This document shows positions 1 through 6,936 of a DNA stretch of 64,000 nt, piece by piece. The notes beneath the pieces are model-generated. The model had not been told where the DNA came from. It did not search any database and was given only the letters and a program-made list of their open reading frames with translations. The DNA is taken from positions 1 to 64,000 of the forward strand of contig JAFUCJ010000006.1 of the NCBI GenBank assembly GCA_017459705.1. The letters run 5' to 3'. The position numbers were made by a program, and so were the translations under genes. Within the stretch, counting starts at the first letter, position 1; each line of letters begins with the position of its first letter. This DNA is from Candidatus Saccharimonadota bacterium (lineage in GTDB: Bacteria; Patescibacteriota; Saccharimonadia; Saccharimonadales; Saccharimonadaceae).

Positions 1-2
1 CA

Positions 3-890
3 GCTTACTTATGGTCATCAACTAACTCGGCTACGGGCAATATTTCTTATGCATTGAATGTTTCTGATTATAGTGGTATCTCAACCTATGTAGGATCAAA
101 CAGTGAATTATGGGCTGGCATGATGTTACCGGTCCGCTGTCTCTTTGACGCCACCATGCAAAACTTTACCAGCGAAGATGCTGATAGTCTTGCAGAGTTT
201 GAGTCTGAAACATTGGTGGACTCGCGTGACGGCAATACTTATACCGTCAAGAAAATCAATGGCAATGTTTGGATGACTCAGAATCTCCGCCTCCTTGGCA
301 ATACTGGTTCACCGGCTGGTAAGATGGTACTTTCTTCTGATACTTCCAATGGTGCAAGTGGCACGATAGATTTGTATAGCCTGAACTCGTCCAATGCTGG
401 TAGCTTCGGAGCATATGCTAACCACTGTGACTCTACGAATGGTTACAACTATGCCTGCGTCTATGATTCTGGCAATGATACGACTGGTGTCTGGTACAAC
501 TATGCCGCCGCCACGGCAAACAATATCAAAACGAATAGTAATCAAACTGCCGTTAGCGCAAGTGGCCCGAGCATCTGTCCATCAGGCTGGCACTTGCCAA
601 CTGGACCGTTCAGCACTAGTGGCACGGATGGTTATACTATATTCCAGAATACTTCTTACGGTTCATGGATTGCCACCAACGCTTCCTTAACCGCCTTTAA
701 TGCCGTCCCTGGCGGGTTCTACAGAAATGGCTCCCTCAACGGTCCCGAGAGCGGGTTCTGGTGGTCGGCTACTGTTGTCGATGCTACGGGTCGTTACGAC
801 CTGGGTTACAATAGTAGTAATACCCAGTTCGTCAGCGATGGCTACTATCGCTACTACGGGTTCTTCGTACGGTGCGTCCGTACGTCGTAG
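3..890 (+). CDS. DGR target protein, tandem FISUMP/C-type-lectin-like domains (5' partial)
   Basis: The frame is open to the window edge, so the N-terminus lies outside. The first 45 or so codons read as the end of one FISUMP-type domain (LWSST near the start, LPVRCL at its end). A second domain follows, with a Y-T-V-K-K-I-N-G-N-V-W-MTQNL opening, a CPSGWHLPT segment and a terminal part with GGF, WWSAT and FFVRCV. This fold is related to the formylglycine-enzyme/C-type-lectin scaffolds used as DGR targets. The last 60 codons are the variable repeat copied from the template at 3096-3303. The product is probably exported and displays a diversified ligand-binding surface; the ligand is unknown. 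The accessory and reverse transcriptase genes follow on the same strand. The internal TTG at 54 is not a credible start because the domain extends upstream of it. Confidence 0.85.
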   Translation, partial: AYLWSSTNSATGNISYALNVSDYSGISTYVGSNSELWAGMMLPVRCLFDATMQNFTSEDADSLAEFESETLVDSRDGNTYTVKKINGNVWMTQNLRLLGNTGSPAGKMVLSSDTSNGASGTIDLYSLNSSNAGSFGAYANHCDSTNGYNYACVYDSGNDTTGVWYNYAAATANNIKTNSNQTAVSASGPSICPSGWHLPTGPFSTSGTDGYTIFQNTSYGSWIATNASLTAFNAVPGGFYRNGSLNGPESGFWWSATVVDATGRYDLGYNSSNTQFVSDGYYRYYGFFVRCVRTS

Positions 891-909
891 GGGCTCTTTC
901 CCCTATAGA
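702..909 (+). repeat. DGR variable repeat (VR)
   Basis: This stretch matches the reverse complement of 3096-3303 over 208 nt. Hand alignment gives 32 substitutions between 702 and about 866, 27 of them at positions that are adenine in the template, mostly AAC or AAT codons changed to TTC, TAC, GAT, GGT, GTC and similar. The remaining five are C, T or G changes. The 3' part from about 866 through the stop codon to 909 is identical in both copies, as expected for the initiation-of-mutagenic-homing end. Adenine-specific substitution between template and target is the diagnostic DGR signature. Confidence 0.95.
866..884. other. 7-bp hairpin inside the invariant 3' end of the VR
   Basis: CGTACGG, loop TGCGT, CCGTACG: a perfect 7-bp stem at the conserved end of the VR, overlapping the codons just before the stop. 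The same hairpin is in the template at 3121-3139. In the Bordetella phage DGR a hairpin or cruciform just downstream of the VR promotes target recognition; here the structure is inside the repeat. Its role is inferred by analogy. Confidence 0.6.
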
Positions 910-925
910 CCTCCACCGGAGAATT

Positions 926-954
926 GGTGCCGCGCCCGTGGCGGGCGCGGCACC
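926..954. other. 13-bp GC-rich hairpin downstream of the VR
   Basis: GGTGCCGCGCCCG and CGGGCGCGGCACC form a perfect 13-bp stem with a TGG loop, starting 17 nt after the VR. No T-run follows, so a standard intrinsic terminator is unlikely in its simple form. It could end the target mRNA, or act as the DNA structure that marks the homing target. Confidence 0.6.
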
Positions 955-1002
955 GGGGTATATTATATATATTAATAATATGGGTGGCAGAATGAATGAA
1001 AG

Positions 1003-1905
1003 ATGGTAACTGCCAAAAAAGAAGATTTTAATAAAAAAGAGGTGCGTGAAATATTGAACGATGGCACGCCGAAGGGGCACAATAGCCGTGGTCGTGGTAG
1101 GTCGCAGGCGGAAAGGCGTGAGTCGTATCGAAAATATCGTGAGATAAAACGTAGGGTATTTGAATTCGAAAAGAAGAATCATGGATTCTTGATCCTTTGG
1201 CCAGCGTCAGACCATGATACGAATGAGCAAAAGTTTTATAATATGGGCGGAAACTCGGCAATTATTTACGTACACGAAATCGGACCACGCATTAAACGTA
1301 AGCCAAGTCTCAGGTTAGATTTGGATTCGGGTGATGTGAAGTTTGGCAGTGGAATATGCTCGATTGCGAATGTTGAGCAGCTAGCGGAAGCGTTGGCGGG
1401 GATTGGTGTCAAGCGTGCGAGGGTAAAACGTCAGGGGTATGATGATTTTATTTTTTTCAAATTAAATCGCGAGTATCCTGAATCAGAGATACGCGAGATG
1501 CTGCGCGACGAGCAGAAGCAGCTAGAGAAATTGAATAAGGTAATCTATGCCACGGTGCTGTATCCTGATATTCATCGGCAGATATTGGACCTCGAAAAGG
1601 TGGTGCCACGCAAGGTGAAGAATATGGATTCGACTTATCGTGAGATAGTAGGTGTAAAGATGATTGATGCCTTGGTGCGGCTGGTGGAGCTCTATTCGCA
1701 GATGGCGCACGGTGATATAGGCGAGTATGAAGCTGGCAAAGAGATGCTTCTAGGATTGGATTCGCTACTCGCGCAGGTATCGATGATGAATGAGCTGAGA
1801 TTGTGGGATATATTGGCGTGTGCTAGGGTGGCGGATATTGCGGTGGGAGCGAAGCAGTTGATCAAGGGCAAAATTATAAATAAAGTCGAGAATGATACTA
1901 ACTAA
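1003..1905 (+). CDS. DGR accessory protein with Avd-like C-terminal helical domain
   Basis: 300 aa, between the VR gene and the reverse transcriptase and overlapping the latter by 14 nt, so probably cotranslated. An in-frame TGA at 997 fixes ATG 1003 as the only start. The basic N-terminus (K, R and G-rich, residues 1-55) precedes an alpha/beta region of about residues 58-155 that weakly recalls the N-terminal mismatch-recognition domain of MutS. Residues 180-295 are long amphipathic helices resembling the Avd four-helix bundle, which binds the reverse transcriptase and the template RNA and is needed for mutagenic homing. Known Avd proteins are about 120 aa, so this looks like a fusion. The Avd assignment is by position and helical pattern; the MutS-like part is tentative. 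Confidence 0.65.
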   Translation: MVTAKKEDFNKKEVREILNDGTPKGHNSRGRGRSQAERRESYRKYREIKRRVFEFEKKNHGFLILWPASDHDTNEQKFYNMGGNSAIIYVHEIGPRIKRKPSLRLDLDSGDVKFGSGICSIANVEQLAEALAGIGVKRARVKRQGYDDFIFFKLNREYPESEIREMLRDEQKQLEKLNKVIYATVLYPDIHRQILDLEKVVPRKVKNMDSTYREIVGVKMIDALVRLVELYSQMAHGDIGEYEAGKEMLLGLDSLLAQVSMMNELRLWDILACARVADIAVGAKQLIKGKIINKVENDTN

Positions 1906-3025
1906 TCAAGAAGAAAAACAGTGGTTGTCGAAGTTTGAGAATAGATTGCTTTTTGAATTGTATGTTGCTTATCTGGAGGCGCGGAAAGGCGGTAAAAGAA
2001 ATACTTTCGACGAACATAAGTTTGAGGTGAATGAATTTGAAAACTTAATAAGCCTGAGGGACTCGTTGCTTGATAAGAGTTATCGACCGTCGCGTGGGAC
2101 AGCGCATATTATCCATAACCCAGTGATAAGAGAGATTTTTGCGGCTAGTTTTAGGGATAGGGTGATTCATCACTGGATGTATAATACGGTGTATGATTGG
2201 TGGGACAAAATGTTTATTGAAGACTCGTATTCATGCAGAGAGGGGAAGGGCACGCAATATGGAATAGAGAGATTGGCGCGGCATATTCAGTCTGTTTCGG
2301 ATAATTATAGTAAACGAACATGGGTGCTTAAAATGGACATTCAAGGATATTTCATGAGTCTGCCGCGTAAGAAATTGTACGAGAGGGCGATGTGGGGGCT
2401 CAATCGGCAGTTCAAGGGGAATTATGGAAAGAAGTATGAGTTGATGCGGTTTCTGTGGGCGCAAACAATTTTCGACGACCCATGTCGTGGGGTAAAACGC
2501 AAGGGATGGCCGAGGGCATGGGAGCCGTTGCCGGATTCAAAGAGTTTGTTCAAGCAACCGCCGGGAGTAGGTATCGTAATTGGGAATCTAACGTCTCAAC
2601 TTTTATCGAACGTGTATTTAGACCAGCTGGATAGATATATTGTGTATGATTTGAAGTTTCCACACTATGGACGATATGTGGATGATTTTTATATTATCGT
2701 AACGGAAGATGAGCTGGCGCGAGCGAAAGAGGCGGTGAAATATATCGAAGTATATCTGCGGCGAATAGGATTGACTCTTCATCCGCAGAAACGGTACATC
2801 CAGCCGGTCGAACGCGGGGTGGCTTTTCTTGGCGCGGTGGTGTATCCTGGAAGAGTGCTGCCCGGGAAGCGCCTGATACGTAATGCTAGGGAGGCGTTTT
2901 CGGAGACGGTGGCGGGAGTGAGAGATGTGGAATCGGTGGTGTCGTATCTTGGGCACATGAAACACATGTCGTCAAAGAAGATATTGGAAAGACTATTTGA
3001 CGGAGTCGGGTGGGATTATCAATAA
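1892..3025 (+). CDS. DGR-type reverse transcriptase
   Basis: 377 aa RNA-dependent DNA polymerase that copies the template RNA into error-prone cDNA. Motif A aspartate is D149 in KMDIQGYF. The motif following it is IGNLTSQ (G231-Q236), the SQ form typical of DGR enzymes rather than the QGxxxSP of retroviral and group II enzymes. The catalytic motif is Y262-V-D-D265. A palm and thumb region follows, with no endonuclease or maturase domain, and the length is typical of DGR enzymes. It overlaps the accessory gene by 14 nt and is followed by a GC-rich hairpin and the inverted template repeat. Confidence 0.93.
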   Translation: MILTNQEEKQWLSKFENRLLFELYVAYLEARKGGKRNTFDEHKFEVNEFENLISLRDSLLDKSYRPSRGTAHIIHNPVIREIFAASFRDRVIHHWMYNTVYDWWDKMFIEDSYSCREGKGTQYGIERLARHIQSVSDNYSKRTWVLKMDIQGYFMSLPRKKLYERAMWGLNRQFKGNYGKKYELMRFLWAQTIFDDPCRGVKRKGWPRAWEPLPDSKSLFKQPPGVGIVIGNLTSQLLSNVYLDQLDRYIVYDLKFPHYGRYVDDFYIIVTEDELARAKEAVKYIEVYLRRIGLTLHPQKRYIQPVERGVAFLGAVVYPGRVLPGKRLIRNAREAFSETVAGVRDVESVVSYLGHMKHMSSKKILERLFDGVGWDYQ

Positions 3026-3040
3026 GCGGCTCGACATGGA

Positions 3041-3085
3041 GCGCCCGCACGGAGAACTGCTCGATCTCGCGGCGGGCGCCCTTTT
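3041..3085 (+). terminator. hairpin and T-run after the reverse transcriptase
   Basis: GCGCCCGC (3041-3048) pairs with GCGGGCGC (3072-3079), followed by CCTTTT on the plus strand. It can end the reverse transcriptase mRNA. Because it also lies just beyond the 3' end of the minus-strand template, it may equally form part of the template RNA 3' region. Confidence 0.5.
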
Positions 3086-3095
3086 GAGGTGGAGT

Positions 3096-3303
3096 TCTAT
3101 AGGGGAAAGAGCCCCTACGACGTACGGACGCACCGTACGAAGTTCCCGTTGTTGCGATTGTTGTTATTGCTGTTGAACTGGGTATTACTACTATTGTAGT
3201 TCAGGTTGTAACGATTCGTAGCATTGTTAGCAGTAGCCGACCACCAGTTCCCGTTCTCGGCATTGTTGAGGGAACCATTGTTGTAGTTCCCGCCAGGGAC
3301 GGC
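3096..3303 (-). repeat. DGR template repeat (TR), inverted relative to the reverse transcriptase
   Basis: Read on the minus strand, this carries the parental sequence of the VR. It is rich in AAC and AAT codons, which can mutate at two adenines to many amino acids without giving a stop. It matches 702-909 with changes concentrated at its adenines and is identical at the 3' end, including the CGTACGG hairpin. It is not part of any evident gene. Its orientation is opposite to the VR gene and reverse transcriptase, so its RNA must come from the minus strand. Confidence 0.95.
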
Positions 3304-3635
3304 GTACAGACTTCGTTTTTATGGAAAATTGTACACCATTGGAGAAGTGGTGTTGCTATATGCTGCCAAAAATGCGACTCGTATGACCCCGAAAACTCTG
3401 TAACGTACTCCCCCTAACCTAGTTCCCCGTATCGCAAAACAACCATTCGAACACGGGTTTAGGAATAACTTGGATCCTGATGGCCCCGTAAAGTCAAAAG
3501 GAGAATGGACTTAGTTTCTGCTAAGTGTATTCCTGACCTCCACCTTGTTTCGCGGCCGTTCGGCGATATGGTATGCTACCTTGCGGCCGGGGGCGAAGCA
3601 GATGATGGTGGAGACACCAATAGAGGTCGCCCCTT
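3096..3635 (-). ncRNA. predicted template RNA: structured 330-nt leader plus TR
   Basis: There is no plausible CDS on either strand between 3304 and 3640. Several stems are visible: TCGCCCC/GGGGCGA (3627-3633 with 3590-3596) enclosing TGGTG-GAGA-CACCA (3606-3619), AGGAATA/TATTCCT (3461-3467 with 3528-3534) enclosing CTTAG/CTAAG (3510-3514 with 3521-3525), and ACACCA/TGGTGT (3333-3353). The first stem starts within two nucleotides of the transcription start predicted from the promoter at 3642-3647. DGR template RNAs in other systems include structured flanks bound by the reverse transcriptase and Avd; this is inferred to be the equivalent. The 3' end is unknown. The same leader and TR fill the gene-free stretch 3086-3640. 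Confidence 0.6.
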
Positions 3636-3641
3636 AGGGAA

Positions 3642-3655
3642 ATTATAACATAGAT
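3642..3655 (-). promoter_or_regulatory. extended -10 promoter for the template RNA
   Basis: On the minus strand TGTTATAAT lies at about 3650-3642, the same extended -10 form that precedes most genes here. No clear -35 is visible. The predicted start is around 3634-3636, pointing at the leader and TR. Confidence 0.5.
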
Positions 3656-3779
3656 TGAATAGATGAAAGTGGGATACATCATGATATTGTGATATTATAG
3701 TTTTATAAAGGACGTGCGCGACACTGGATTGAGTCAGACACGTCTTTTTTGCGCTATGATACTGTGATATAATAATGAC

Positions 3780-4250
3780 ATGAAAATACTATGGACAGAT
3801 GGGAGCGCGGAGCCGAACCCGGGGGATGGCGGCTGGGCGGTGATAGAGGCGCGCGAGAGGGTGCCGGCGATAGGGGTGGAACTCGATGCGATTCGCGAGG
3901 ACGAGGCGCGGCCGGTGGCGCTAGGAAATGAACACGATACGACGAATATTCGGATGGAAGGGTCGGCCATTATCGCGGCGATAGAATATGCCGGTGAAGA
4001 GGGGTGCGAGATACATACCGACTCGGAGTTTTGGGTCAATGTGCTGACGAAGTGGGCGCCGACCTGGGAAGCGAACGGTTGGAGAAAGAAAACTGGCGAA
4101 ATCAAGAATCTCGAAATGGTGCAAAAAATGTACCGACTGTATCGCGAACGGTCGGTGAAATTGGTGTGGGTGCGGGGGCACGTGGGGACGGAGTTGAACG
4201 AAATGGCTGATGAGTGGGCGGGTCGGGCCCGAAAAGGCTACAAAATATGA
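3780..4250 (+). CDS. rnhA: ribonuclease HI
   Basis: 156 aa, the usual length. It cleaves the RNA strand of RNA-DNA hybrids. The four catalytic acidic residues can be placed: D7 (WTDGSAEPNPGDGG opening), E60 (RMEGSAIIAA), D81 (HTDSEFW) and D144 (NEMADEWAG), with H134 in the RGHVG loop. TATAAT at 3768-3773 ends 6 nt before the ATG, so the mRNA is probably leaderless. It is separate from the DGR, although an RNase H next to a reverse transcriptase is suggestive; the housekeeping role is the simpler reading. Confidence 0.93.
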   Translation: MKILWTDGSAEPNPGDGGWAVIEARERVPAIGVELDAIREDEARPVALGNEHDTTNIRMEGSAIIAAIEYAGEEGCEIHTDSEFWVNVLTKWAPTWEANGWRKKTGEIKNLEMVQKMYRLYRERSVKLVWVRGHVGTELNEMADEWAGRARKGYKI

Positions 4251-4262
4251 TATAATAGGGAT

Positions 4263-5522
4263 ATGAAGTTATCAGAGGAACTAATATATCGGGGGTTCAA
4301 GGCGGAGACGACAGTTGAAAATCCAGCGGAGCTGGATGCGCGCGAGAACAAGACATTTTATTGGGGGGCGGATCCGTCGGCGGATTCGTTAACAATTGGC
4401 AATTTGGCGGCGCTGATGATGTGCGCGTGTTTTGTGCGACATGGATGGAAGCCATACCTGCTGGTCGGTGGGGCGACGGGGCAAATCGGTGATCCGAAGG
4501 AAAATGGTGAGCGAGATCTCAAAACGCTAGATGAAGTTGAACACAACAAGAATTGCATTCGTGAACAGGTAGAAAATGTAATACTTCGGGCGAGTGATGC
4601 TGCTGCTAGTGGCACTACTCTCACGCTGGTCGACAACTATGACTGGTTCAAGGACATGCGGTTTTTGCCGTTCCTAAGAGAGGTGGGGAAGAACTTTTCG
4701 ATGACACAGTTGCTCGATCGGCAGTTTGTGCAGAATCGGATCGGCGAGGGCGGTTCGGGTATTAGTTACGCGGAGTTTTCCTATACGTTGATACAGGGGT
4801 ATGATTTCTTGCATCTACATCGTGAATATGGCGTGGCGATGCAACTATGTGGTGCGGACCAATACGGTAACTGTACGACTGGGATGCACTTGATTCGTCG
4901 ACTCGAAGGGGCGGATGTGGACGTGTGGAGCACGCCACTCGTGATCGATCCGGTGACGGGGCGGAAGTTTGGCAAGAGCGAGGGGAATGCTGTGTGGCTT
5001 GCGTCGTCAGATAACGGCGGCGGAAATTATACGAGCGTGTTTGATTTCTATCAATTCTGGTTGAATCAGCCGGATGAGGCGGTAGAATATCTGCTCAAAA
5101 TCTACACCTTGCTCGATAAGGAAGAAATCGAGGAAATCTTGGCACTTCATCGCGAAGCGCCGGAGAAGCGGATCGCTCAGAAAGCGTTGGCGTTCGGGGC
5201 GACGAGCGTGGTGCATGGGCGCGAAGCGGCGGCGGCGATTGAGAATCTAGTGATGCGGTTATTTGACAAGGAAACGGATTTTACGGAGTTCTCTGAGGAT
5301 GAGTTGACGGAGATGGCGGCGTATCTACCAGTGATAGCGCGCGGTGAATCGCTAGTGGATATACTGGTGACGACTGGATTAGCCGAGAGCAAGAAAAAAG
5401 CGCGGGAGTTCGTCGCGCAGGGGGCGGTCAGCGTGAACGGAGTCAAAGTAACGGAAGATATAGCCGTGAACCAGGTTGCGATAGTGAAAAAAGGCAAAAA
5501 TAAGTTTGTGATTGTGAAATAA
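4263..5522 (+). CDS. tyrS: tyrosyl-tRNA synthetase
   Basis: 419 aa class I synthetase charging tRNA-Tyr. The N-terminal catalytic domain has the HIGH-like segment S-L-T-IGNL (about residues 40-47), the tyrosine-binding region with QxxGxDQYGN-type residues (LCGADQYGNC) and a KFGKSEG signature loop. A C-terminal S4 RNA-binding domain (about 350-415, S-K-K-K-A-R-E-F-V and SVNGVKV) completes the bacterial form. TATAAT at 4251-4256 is 6 nt upstream of the ATG, so the transcript is predicted leaderless. It ends at a bidirectional terminator shared with rpmA. Confidence 0.95.
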   Translation: MKLSEELIYRGFKAETTVENPAELDARENKTFYWGADPSADSLTIGNLAALMMCACFVRHGWKPYLLVGGATGQIGDPKENGERDLKTLDEVEHNKNCIREQVENVILRASDAAASGTTLTLVDNYDWFKDMRFLPFLREVGKNFSMTQLLDRQFVQNRIGEGGSGISYAEFSYTLIQGYDFLHLHREYGVAMQLCGADQYGNCTTGMHLIRRLEGADVDVWSTPLVIDPVTGRKFGKSEGNAVWLASSDNGGGNYTSVFDFYQFWLNQPDEAVEYLLKIYTLLDKEEIEEILALHREAPEKRIAQKALAFGATSVVHGREAAAAIENLVMRLFDKETDFTEFSEDELTEMAAYLPVIARGESLVDILVTTGLAESKKKAREFVAQGAVSVNGVKVTEDIAVNQVAIVKKGKNKFVIVK

Positions 5523-5532
5523 ACTGCTCACT

Positions 5533-5569
5533 AAAAACCGCCCTCACAGATGTTCTGAGGGCGGTTTTA
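5533..5569. terminator. bidirectional terminator between tyrS and rpmA
   Basis: AAAACCGCCCTCA pairs with TGAGGGCGGTTTT around a 9-nt loop. It has A-runs and T-runs on both sides, so it can stop tyrS transcripts from the left and rpmA transcripts from the right. Confidence 0.9.
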
Positions 5570-5574
5570 AGGAA

Positions 5575-5847
5575 TTACCGGACTTCGACGCGGACACGAG
5601 GTAATGATTTGCCTGAGAAATGCGTCTTTTTCGTTTTTACGAAAGTAACTACGCCGTCCTTGGCAGCATGAATGGTGAAGTTGCGCGACATATAAGTACC
5701 TTCGCCTGCAAGCTTCGTAGCGCCGGTCTGACGGACGAGTACCTCGCCGTTTTTAACTTTTTGACCACCGAAGCGCTTGACGCCAAGGCGCTGACCGGCA
5801 TTATTATGGACGTTCTTGGCGGTACCGCCAGCTTTTACGTGTGACAT
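5575..5847 (-). CDS. rpmA: ribosomal protein bL27
   Basis: 90 aa component of the 50S subunit whose N-terminal tail reaches the peptidyl transferase centre. It starts MSHVKAGGTAKN, followed by the GQRLGVKRFGGQ and VRQTG blocks typical of bL27. There is no cleavable Firmicute-type N-terminal extension. The usual partner rplU (bL21) is not beside it. The gene lies immediately downstream of the methyltransferase on the minus strand with no gap, so the two are probably one operon. Confidence 0.95.
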   Translation of the reverse strand: MSHVKAGGTAKNVHNNAGQRLGVKRFGGQKVKNGEVLVRQTGATKLAGEGTYMSRNFTIHAAKDGVVTFVKTKKTHFSGKSLPRVRVEVR

Positions 5848-6936
5848 TTAATTCTTCCTTAATATTATTATATCCCGCGCGACGATTTGGCTTTCACGAT
5901 GATAAAGCAATCCCTCACGCGTCTTATTAGATACATTATACCCCATATGTTCAATTTCGTCAAGGATTTCGAGCCGCGAATATACCCCATTCTCGCGCAG
6001 CCAAGCCGGTGCCGCGACGACTACTGGCGTACCGGGTCGGATTTGCCCACTCAGGTTCTTCAAAAAACCCAGAATAATAGCACTGCACTCTTGTTTTTCG
6101 GTTTTGAGTTTGATCTCGGGCGGCACCGTCGACATTGGCCGGCCGAGATATCCTTCGCAAGCAACCGCGTCAATGGGTGGTTGCCAGTGAAAGGATGTGG
6201 CATCACCCTGTTCTACGGTATAGTTACCCTTATCTAGCCATTTTAGATTCTTCTCGGAATACTCTACCATTCTTTCGCTGAGGTCTGTGCCGTAGGCAGT
6301 ATAACCCATCAGGAGCGCCTCTTGCAAAACTACCCCTGTACCACAAAATGGGTCGAGGATTCGCGAGCCTGCTGGTAAGGGCCCGCATAAATTGATTAAA
6401 ATTTGCGCTAACTTCGGTGGTAGCATGCCGACCTTGGCGTCGCGTGCGGGACGAGCCTGGTCGCGGCGAGCGTAGGCATCAATGTTCTGTACTCCTATTA
6501 CTCGAAACCAGCTATTCTGGACTTTAACTAGCTCTATTTTGTGTGGATTCTTGCCGGAAAGTCCATTATGGAGCGAGGTAGCTGTCGAGAGCGTGGCGTT
6601 CTTGTTCTCGACCACTCGTACACTACGGCCGTGACGTACGAGGATTTTTTTGAGTTTTAACGCTTCCAGACTGGCATTCTTGCGCGAAGCGTGGCCTGAA
6701 TAGTCGCTGACTCCCAGTGTAATTTTGCCGCTAGGGATATTTCGCAAATAATCAAGCGGCGATGCTTCTAATTTCTCGGCTATTTTGAGACATCCACCGA
6801 GGCGGTCGATGCCGGGCGCTATGTCGGATTCAAATGTTGCGAGATTTGGAGCGATTTGCCTGACATTCAAAAACAACGCTTCTAGCTCGGCTAAGGAAAT
6901 CGCGGGCTCGCGCCCCAGGACGGATAGGTATTTCAC
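5848..6936 (-). CDS. TRM11/THUMP-type tRNA guanosine N2-methyltransferase-like protein
   Basis: 362 aa. The C-terminal Rossmann domain has an SAM-binding motif I ILDPFCGTGVVLQEA (about 195-209) and YGTDLS for motif II. The catalytic position reads CEGYLGRP, the E-P/G-x-L-G variant seen in TRM11-like relatives rather than plain DPPY. The N-terminal part (1-150) is consistent with a THUMP-like RNA-binding region. The likely activity is N2-methylation of a tRNA guanosine, by family analogy. TATAAT lies 5 nt before the ATG on the minus strand. rpmA follows directly. Confidence 0.7.
   Translation of the reverse strand: MKYLSVLGREPAISLAELEALFLNVRQIAPNLATFESDIAPGIDRLGGCLKIAEKLEASPLDYLRNIPSGKITLGVSDYSGHASRKNASLEALKLKKILVRHGRSVRVVENKNATLSTATSLHNGLSGKNPHKIELVKVQNSWFRVIGVQNIDAYARRDQARPARDAKVGMLPPKLAQILINLCGPLPAGSRILDPFCGTGVVLQEALLMGYTAYGTDLSERMVEYSEKNLKWLDKGNYTVEQGDATSFHWQPPIDAVACEGYLGRPMSTVPPEIKLKTEKQECSAIILGFLKNLSGQIRPGTPVVVAAPAWLRENGVYSRLEILDEIEHMGYNVSNKTREGLLYHRESQIVARDIIILRKN

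Follow-up and report, generated by a model that had tools for sequence, protein, structure and literature searches.

We analyzed a 64,000-nucleotide stretch of Candidatus Saccharimonadota DNA (the window), which is contig C10 from base 1 (JAFUCJ010000006.1) in the 728-kb genome of a Saccharibacterium. Judged from its sequence, the locus at the start of the window is a chromosomal diversity-generating retroelement (DGR) of a gut Saccharibacterium. The best overall explanation, to which we give a probability of about 0.68, is an inverted DGR: its template repeat (TR) faces the reverse transcriptase (RT) gene from the opposite strand, and its template RNA would be primed from the 5' side by a segment that also identifies the target. 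The conserved start of a folded leader probably both begins copying and marks the gene to be rewritten. This explanation draws on the DGR parts, adenine-specific substitutions between the TR and a variable repeat (VR), a promoter conserved among relatives, a covarying leader helix (P2), a leader segment (P1a) that matches the VR better than the TR, and an inversion found across the lineage. The named relatives nearest to the genome are 'Candidatus Saccharibacteria' metagenome-assembled genomes (MAGs), many of them from ruminant gut. The template unit had no match in a plasmid collection.

The target gene, accessory gene (1003-1905), and RT gene (1892-3025) all lie on the plus strand, while the TR lies on the minus strand, 63 nt past the RT stop. 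A first-pass annotation had described these strands, with the TR downstream of the RT gene and convergent with it, and was correct. It had also called the DGR complete. The machinery is, but the target open reading frame (ORF) runs off contig base 1, which leaves the cassette slightly short of complete. The features of the locus are as follows.

3-890, plus strand: 3' part of the target (VR) gene, with a FISUMP/Fib_succ_major domain; an open-ended ORF whose 5' end is lost at the contig start
702-917, plus strand: VR, a 216-bp ungapped match to the TR, ending 27 nt past the stop codon
908-917, plus strand: VR end GACCTCCACC, of the initiation of mutagenic homology (IMH) type; exact complement of P1a, where the TR has GAACTCCACC
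924-956, plus strand: G+C-rich hairpin with a 15-pair stem just 3' of the VR, the DGR target-site stem-loop
1003-1905, plus strand: accessory protein, 300 aa, with an N-terminal alpha/beta domain and a C-terminal Avd-like four-helix bundle
1892-3025, plus strand: DGR RT, 377 aa, with IGNLTSQ at residue 230 and YVDD at 262
3088-3303, minus strand: TR, convergent with the RT gene; relatives share its position and strand
3088-3097, minus strand: TR 3' end GAACTCCACC, IMH*-like; able to pair with P1a apart from one mismatch, a pairing also found in the single-sequence fold
3461-3544, minus strand: core of the template-RNA leader (P1a 3535-3544, P2a 3528-3534, P3 hairpin 3509-3526, AAGT 3468-3471, P2b 3461-3467)
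3535-3544, minus strand: P1a GGTGGAGGTC, proposed primer or guide segment; exact complement of the VR end
3642-3647, minus strand: TATAAT (-10), extended TGTTATAAT; predicted template-RNA promoter

Direct alignment of the VR with the reverse complement of the TR revealed 33 differences over 216 bp, without gaps. Twenty-eight were at TR adenines (A>G 15, A>T 12, A>C 1), and the remaining five were C>T (twice), C>A, T>C, and G>C. As adenine occupies 63 of the 216 TR positions, the binomial chance of this concentration is approximately 5e-11. A repeat search of window positions 1-6000 returned the pair as the sole inverted repeat of at least 30 nt. The first-pass annotation had aligned 702-909 with 3096-3303 and counted 27 of 32 substitutions at adenines. 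The pairing and the adenine bias stand; the extent was 8 nt short, and both counts were one too low. The non-adenine TR positions that differ correspond to VR positions 725, 731, 744, 775, and 806, none shared by a second VR on contig C1. They are ordinary mutations or non-adenine errors of the window copy.

Comparison with loci from relatives and GTDB genomes, in which the TR was placed by adenine bias, revealed a conserved promoter sequence. On the TR strand, 25 of 35 inverted loci had TATAAT upstream of the TR (dinucleotide shuffle mean 5.1, maximum 10), and 14 of the 35 had TATAAT with GGG after it (shuffle mean 0.49). The separate promoter that the convergent arrangement had been said to need is therefore supported across relatives, and this sequence conservation marks the template RNA as its own transcription unit on the strand opposite the RT. 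The leader between promoter and TR spans approximately 330 nt. As a single sequence, the predicted RNA (3640-3026) folded with a z of -5.97, its leader pairing with the TR end. Rfam searches with the leader at gathering and permissive thresholds gave no fitting family and one 10-bit chance match. Sequence and fold also showed a G+C-rich inverted repeat between the window TR and the RT stop.

Within the leader, an order common to the loci was recognized by eye and then by scanning: P1a, a 7-bp P2a/P2b helix directly after it, CnCT and P3 inside, and AAG before P2b. P2 exhibited double changes at all 7 pairs, with 95.5% of cells paired. Because the alignment sequences were partly chosen for showing P2, the paired percentage leans towards P2 and the number of double-change cells is the better guide (29 vs 8.0 when shuffled; 0/500). 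RNAalifold, unaided, returned P2 alone. A covariance model of these 7 pairs, which is weakly specific, matched the window with 54.3 bits at 3457-3546, the window being in its training set. It found the non-training loci L019 and L038 well, and did not find the Bacteroidales loci. The structured leader complementary to the VR end is a feature that the first-pass annotation missed.

P1a matched the VR better than the TR. The longest exact leader-VR match averaged 8.9 nt across loci, compared with 6.5 nt when VR ends were swapped among loci (200 permutations, maximum 7.0) and only 7.3 nt for the leader against the TR end. P1a, P2, and CnCT occurred jointly in 21 of 37 loci, versus 0-3 with VR ends swapped and 0-1 with leaders shuffled. 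At positions -3 and -2 from the P1/P2 junction, P1a paired with the VR in 21/21 and 19/21 loci and with the TR in 11/21 and 10/21, placing the TR mismatches 2-3 nt from the junction. In six further loci, leader-VR matches were 6, 12, 8, 13, 10, and 13 nt long. As P1a of the window complements the VR end exactly and the TR differs, the change at position 910 is probably an IMH/IMH* difference rather than a product of adenine mutagenesis; it is common to both intact VRs. A search for the longest complement of the TR 3' end that disregarded P2 context was noisy and misleading in several loci, and was abandoned.

We propose the following mechanism. An RNA would start near 3635 on the minus strand and proceed through the folded leader into the TR. 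P1a would fold back on the TR 3' end beside P2, with its strand serving as a primer pointing into the TR, and the RT with its Avd-like partner would start complementary DNA (cDNA) at P1a and miscopy adenines. We infer the primer role of P1a, the priming chemistry, and target choice by the P1a-VR match from the sequences, the first of these because the polarity of P1a suits a primer on the TR 3' end and its place corresponds to that of A56 in the BPP-1 DGR. Since P1a complements the VR end exactly and the TR end imperfectly, the RNA-cDNA hybrid would match the VR unbroken through the junction, so that it would be steered to the VR, while the mismatch of P1a to the TR would spare the TR from rewriting.

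In BPP-1 (NC_005357), spacer (Sp) nt 48-56, AGGTGGTCA, are the exact complement of the VR IMH, of which the TR shares only 5 nt. The last nucleotide of this stretch, A56, is the known priming adenine of BPP-1. Of 16 Bacteroidales and phage DGRs whose TR shares the RT strand, 8 also had P1a, P2, and CnCT 5' of the TR (mean 0.97 and maximum 3 under permutation; maximum 1 when shuffled), although these eight are not all independent because L067 and L071 are near relatives. A broader idea, to which we give somewhat less than even odds, is that these are two circular permutations of one DGR priming module, located 3' of the TR in BPP-1 and 5' of it in Saccharibacteria, many Bacteroidales, and some phages. 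In either version the primer would double as an address label, because it is complementary to the target IMH and mismatched to the template IMH*, and flow would run from TR to VR only.

Several observations weigh against a primer that also selects the target. Sixteen of 37 loci, and 5 of the 6 new ones, lacked the strict P1a-P2 pattern, partly because the rule is narrow (fixed spacing, CnCT), and the leader matched the TR better than the VR in L009, L039, L044, and L049. The BPP-1 complementarity is not the only 9-nt match to the region, and its weight rests on the coincidence with A56. Among several BPP-1-like phage DGRs with TR-RT gaps of 100-340 nt, there was no clear primer-VR match on either side of the TR. 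Extension of the rule to such long-gap phages was thus not confirmed, and the rule may not be general.

It is unlikely, in our estimate, that the role of the leader is confined to folding and binding the RT complex, with P1a a guide for VR DNA and priming located 3' of the TR, antisense to the end of the RT gene. BPP-1 does prime from the spacer 3' of its TR, at an internal adenine (PMC12875486), and the G+C-rich inverted repeat between the window TR and the RT stop could be taken as a sign of the same arrangement. This alternative is less likely because most loci are without a shared 3' spacer: all inverted loci but L008 and L043 (32 of 34) have the TR end within -42 to +169 nt of the RT stop. 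P1a, moreover, is oriented as a primer on the TR 3' end would be, and it corresponds to the A56 stretch.

Inversion of the TR is a rule of the lineage. In the RT tree, the window RT belonged to a Saccharibacteria-type clade of 40 rows (support 100/100), in which the TR lay opposite the RT in 34 of 36 loci with a placed TR. The TR was downstream on the RT strand in two (L051 and L026), and 4 rows had no placed TR. All six further loci, fetched later, also had the TR opposite the RT (L109, L110, L111, L112, L114, and L117), upstream of the RT in the case of L114. The convergent layout had been presented as an oddity among DGRs of candidate phyla radiation (CPR) bacteria; it is instead the norm in this clade, and TR and RT on different strands have been a named type ('group 4') since 2012 (PMC3521204). 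DGRs in CPR bacteria were already known (PMC8144416), and inverted patterns are among the 122 cassette types described in 2019 (PMC6642488). A self-contained unit of promoter, leader, and TR would also explain why DGR TRs can occupy either strand.

Two loci stand apart. L078, binned as Clostridia (rabbit gut MAG), groups within the Saccharibacteria RT clade and shares its convergent TR, reflecting mis-binning or transfer. Outside the clade, L075 (Wolfebacteria) has an inverted TR 7 nt from the RT stop and TATAAT at -163, possibly a second origin of the inverted layout.

Some relatives have a TR that extends over the RT stop (gaps as low as -42 nt), which makes antisense contact with the RT messenger RNA (mRNA) possible. 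We consider it improbable, and clearly less likely than 3' priming, that the convergent layout serves mainly antisense control, with template RNA and RT mRNA overlapping or colliding and so linking TR and RT expression. This would fit both the overlap and the TR strand, on which no T-rich terminator was found, but the overlap is not conserved, the TR-RT gap is 373 nt in L043, and the genome's second DGR (L008) has a 436-aa minus-strand gene between RT and inverted TR. That second DGR, on contig C7, has an RT 52% identical to the first and its own TR, with TR and VR together on the strand opposite the RT. The 436-aa protein (L008 10772-12082) resembles, by eye, an AAA-type ATPase.

In DGRs the VR is expected at the 3' end of a target gene with a C-type-lectin fold. 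In the window, the VR sits at the 3' end of its target gene, which profiles assign to FISUMP/Fib_succ_major (PF09603, E 2.4e-11; TIGR02145, E 2.2e-16). As part of the whole explanation, and with the confidence given to it, the DGR would rewrite the 3' end of surface-type genes with FISUMP domains. An IMH (908-917) and a stem-loop (924-956) are both present at the target 3' end; a stem-loop at the target site is required in BPP-1 (PMC3240598). A second target gene (561 aa) lies on contig C1. Its VR differs from the TR at adenines only (26/26), terminates in the identical GACCTCCACC, and is followed by the hairpin. The C1 end (L086 = G000:C1:1-4000; window 270-1185) also contains a near-identical accessory-gene start. 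The target/accessory junction is repeated in the genome, as C1 and the window contig both break there.

A third VR lies on contig C7 near 126 kb (C7:126008-126186; L087 = G000:C7:123000-129000), with 30 of 33 differences at TR adenines, so that the three copies give 28/33, 26/26, and 30/33. It stops before the IMH, and the hairpin is absent; it looks like a frozen former VR which, by our model, would no longer be rewritable. The protein containing it (712 aa) has two FISUMP-like domains. In one relative (G012), eight separate matches to the window TR region (contigs C7, C18, C21, C24, C26, C35, and C39) suggest many VR targets for a single template.

These copies also bear on whether the locus is a dead DGR preserved by chance, which we regard as more improbable still than antisense control. 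The five non-adenine differences of the window VR and the copy without IMH and hairpin are what decay might leave, but the RT and accessory ORFs are intact and the C1 VR, with the same IMH and hairpin, differs from the TR at adenines alone. An inverted TR created by misassembly is very improbable: the window does begin at a contig break inside the target gene, but the same layout recurs in dozens of independently assembled genomes.

The RT (RVT_1, E 8.7e-12) contains both YxDD, as YVDD, and the DGR mark (I/V/L)GxxxSQ, as IGNLTSQ (PMC3521204). Its nearest solved structure was chain A of the BPP-1 DGR ribonucleoprotein (RNP) entries 8ub7-8ube (E 7.6e-27). By sequence, the accessory protein had no family in Pfam, NCBIfam, PHROGs, or PADLOC, and a PDB profile search gave chance matches only. 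In its AlphaFold2 model (pLDDT 91), the C-terminal half resembled BPP-1 Avd (4dwl/8ub7; Foldseek probability up to 1.00, TMt approximately 0.8). By predicted fold, then, it is the Avd-type protein expected of a DGR. Its homologues precede the RT in related loci, and those of L010 and L039 carry additional N-terminal sequence resembling a helix-turn-helix domain.

As far as could be checked, a 5' primer complementary to the VR is new. We found neither the clade-wide convergent layout, the 5' P1-P2 leader, nor the primer-IMH rule in the open literature; the claim is provisional because key subscription papers lay outside its scope, and IMH complementarity may have been noticed earlier. We know of no agreed answer to why the TR itself is spared. 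How DGR cDNA finds the VR is a stated open question (PMC12875486). If true, a primer RNA with a better match to IMH than to IMH* would provide a concrete, testable answer to both. Rewriting P1a could then redirect DGR diversification to other targets, and about 40 natural covariants are available to guide design.

Among known systems, the 'inverted' group 4 DGRs of Shewanella, Vibrio, and Photobacterium, described in 2012 (PMC3521204), likewise have TR and RT on different strands. There, however, TR, VR, and target lie together opposite the RT, whereas in the window only the TR is inverted and the target lies with the RT. The strict group 4 definition is ruled out because the window VR and target share the RT strand. 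TR and VR on opposite strands were considered 'theoretically' possible, and one DGR had 2 of 4 VRs opposite (PMC3521204). Bacteroidales DGRs (e.g. L054, L060, L067, L069, and L071) have sister RTs, several have the P1-P2-CnCT module 5' of the TR, and in L054 and L060 the accessory protein is also related, as seen in an alignment. They differ in having the TR upstream of the RT and co-directional.

In retrons, the transcript's 3' end is paired with an RNA segment from its 5' side, adjacent to the site where reverse transcription begins, which resembles the proposed pairing of P1a beside the start of copying. Nothing in the window suggests a product of the multicopy single-stranded DNA (msDNA) type, and its genome instead holds adenine-mutated VR copies. 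A retron-type RT was rejected, as the best NCBIfam retron model scored 35 bits against a cut-off of 235. The window DGR shares with BPP-1 a DGR-type RT, the Avd fold, adenine-specific TR-to-VR changes, an IMH/IMH* difference, a hairpin 3' of the VR, and a candidate primer stretch complementary to the VR IMH. BPP-1 has avd, TR, and brt on a single strand, with its priming spacer 3' of the TR, whereas the window DGR has an inverted TR with its own predicted promoter and the VR-matching segment 5' of the TR.

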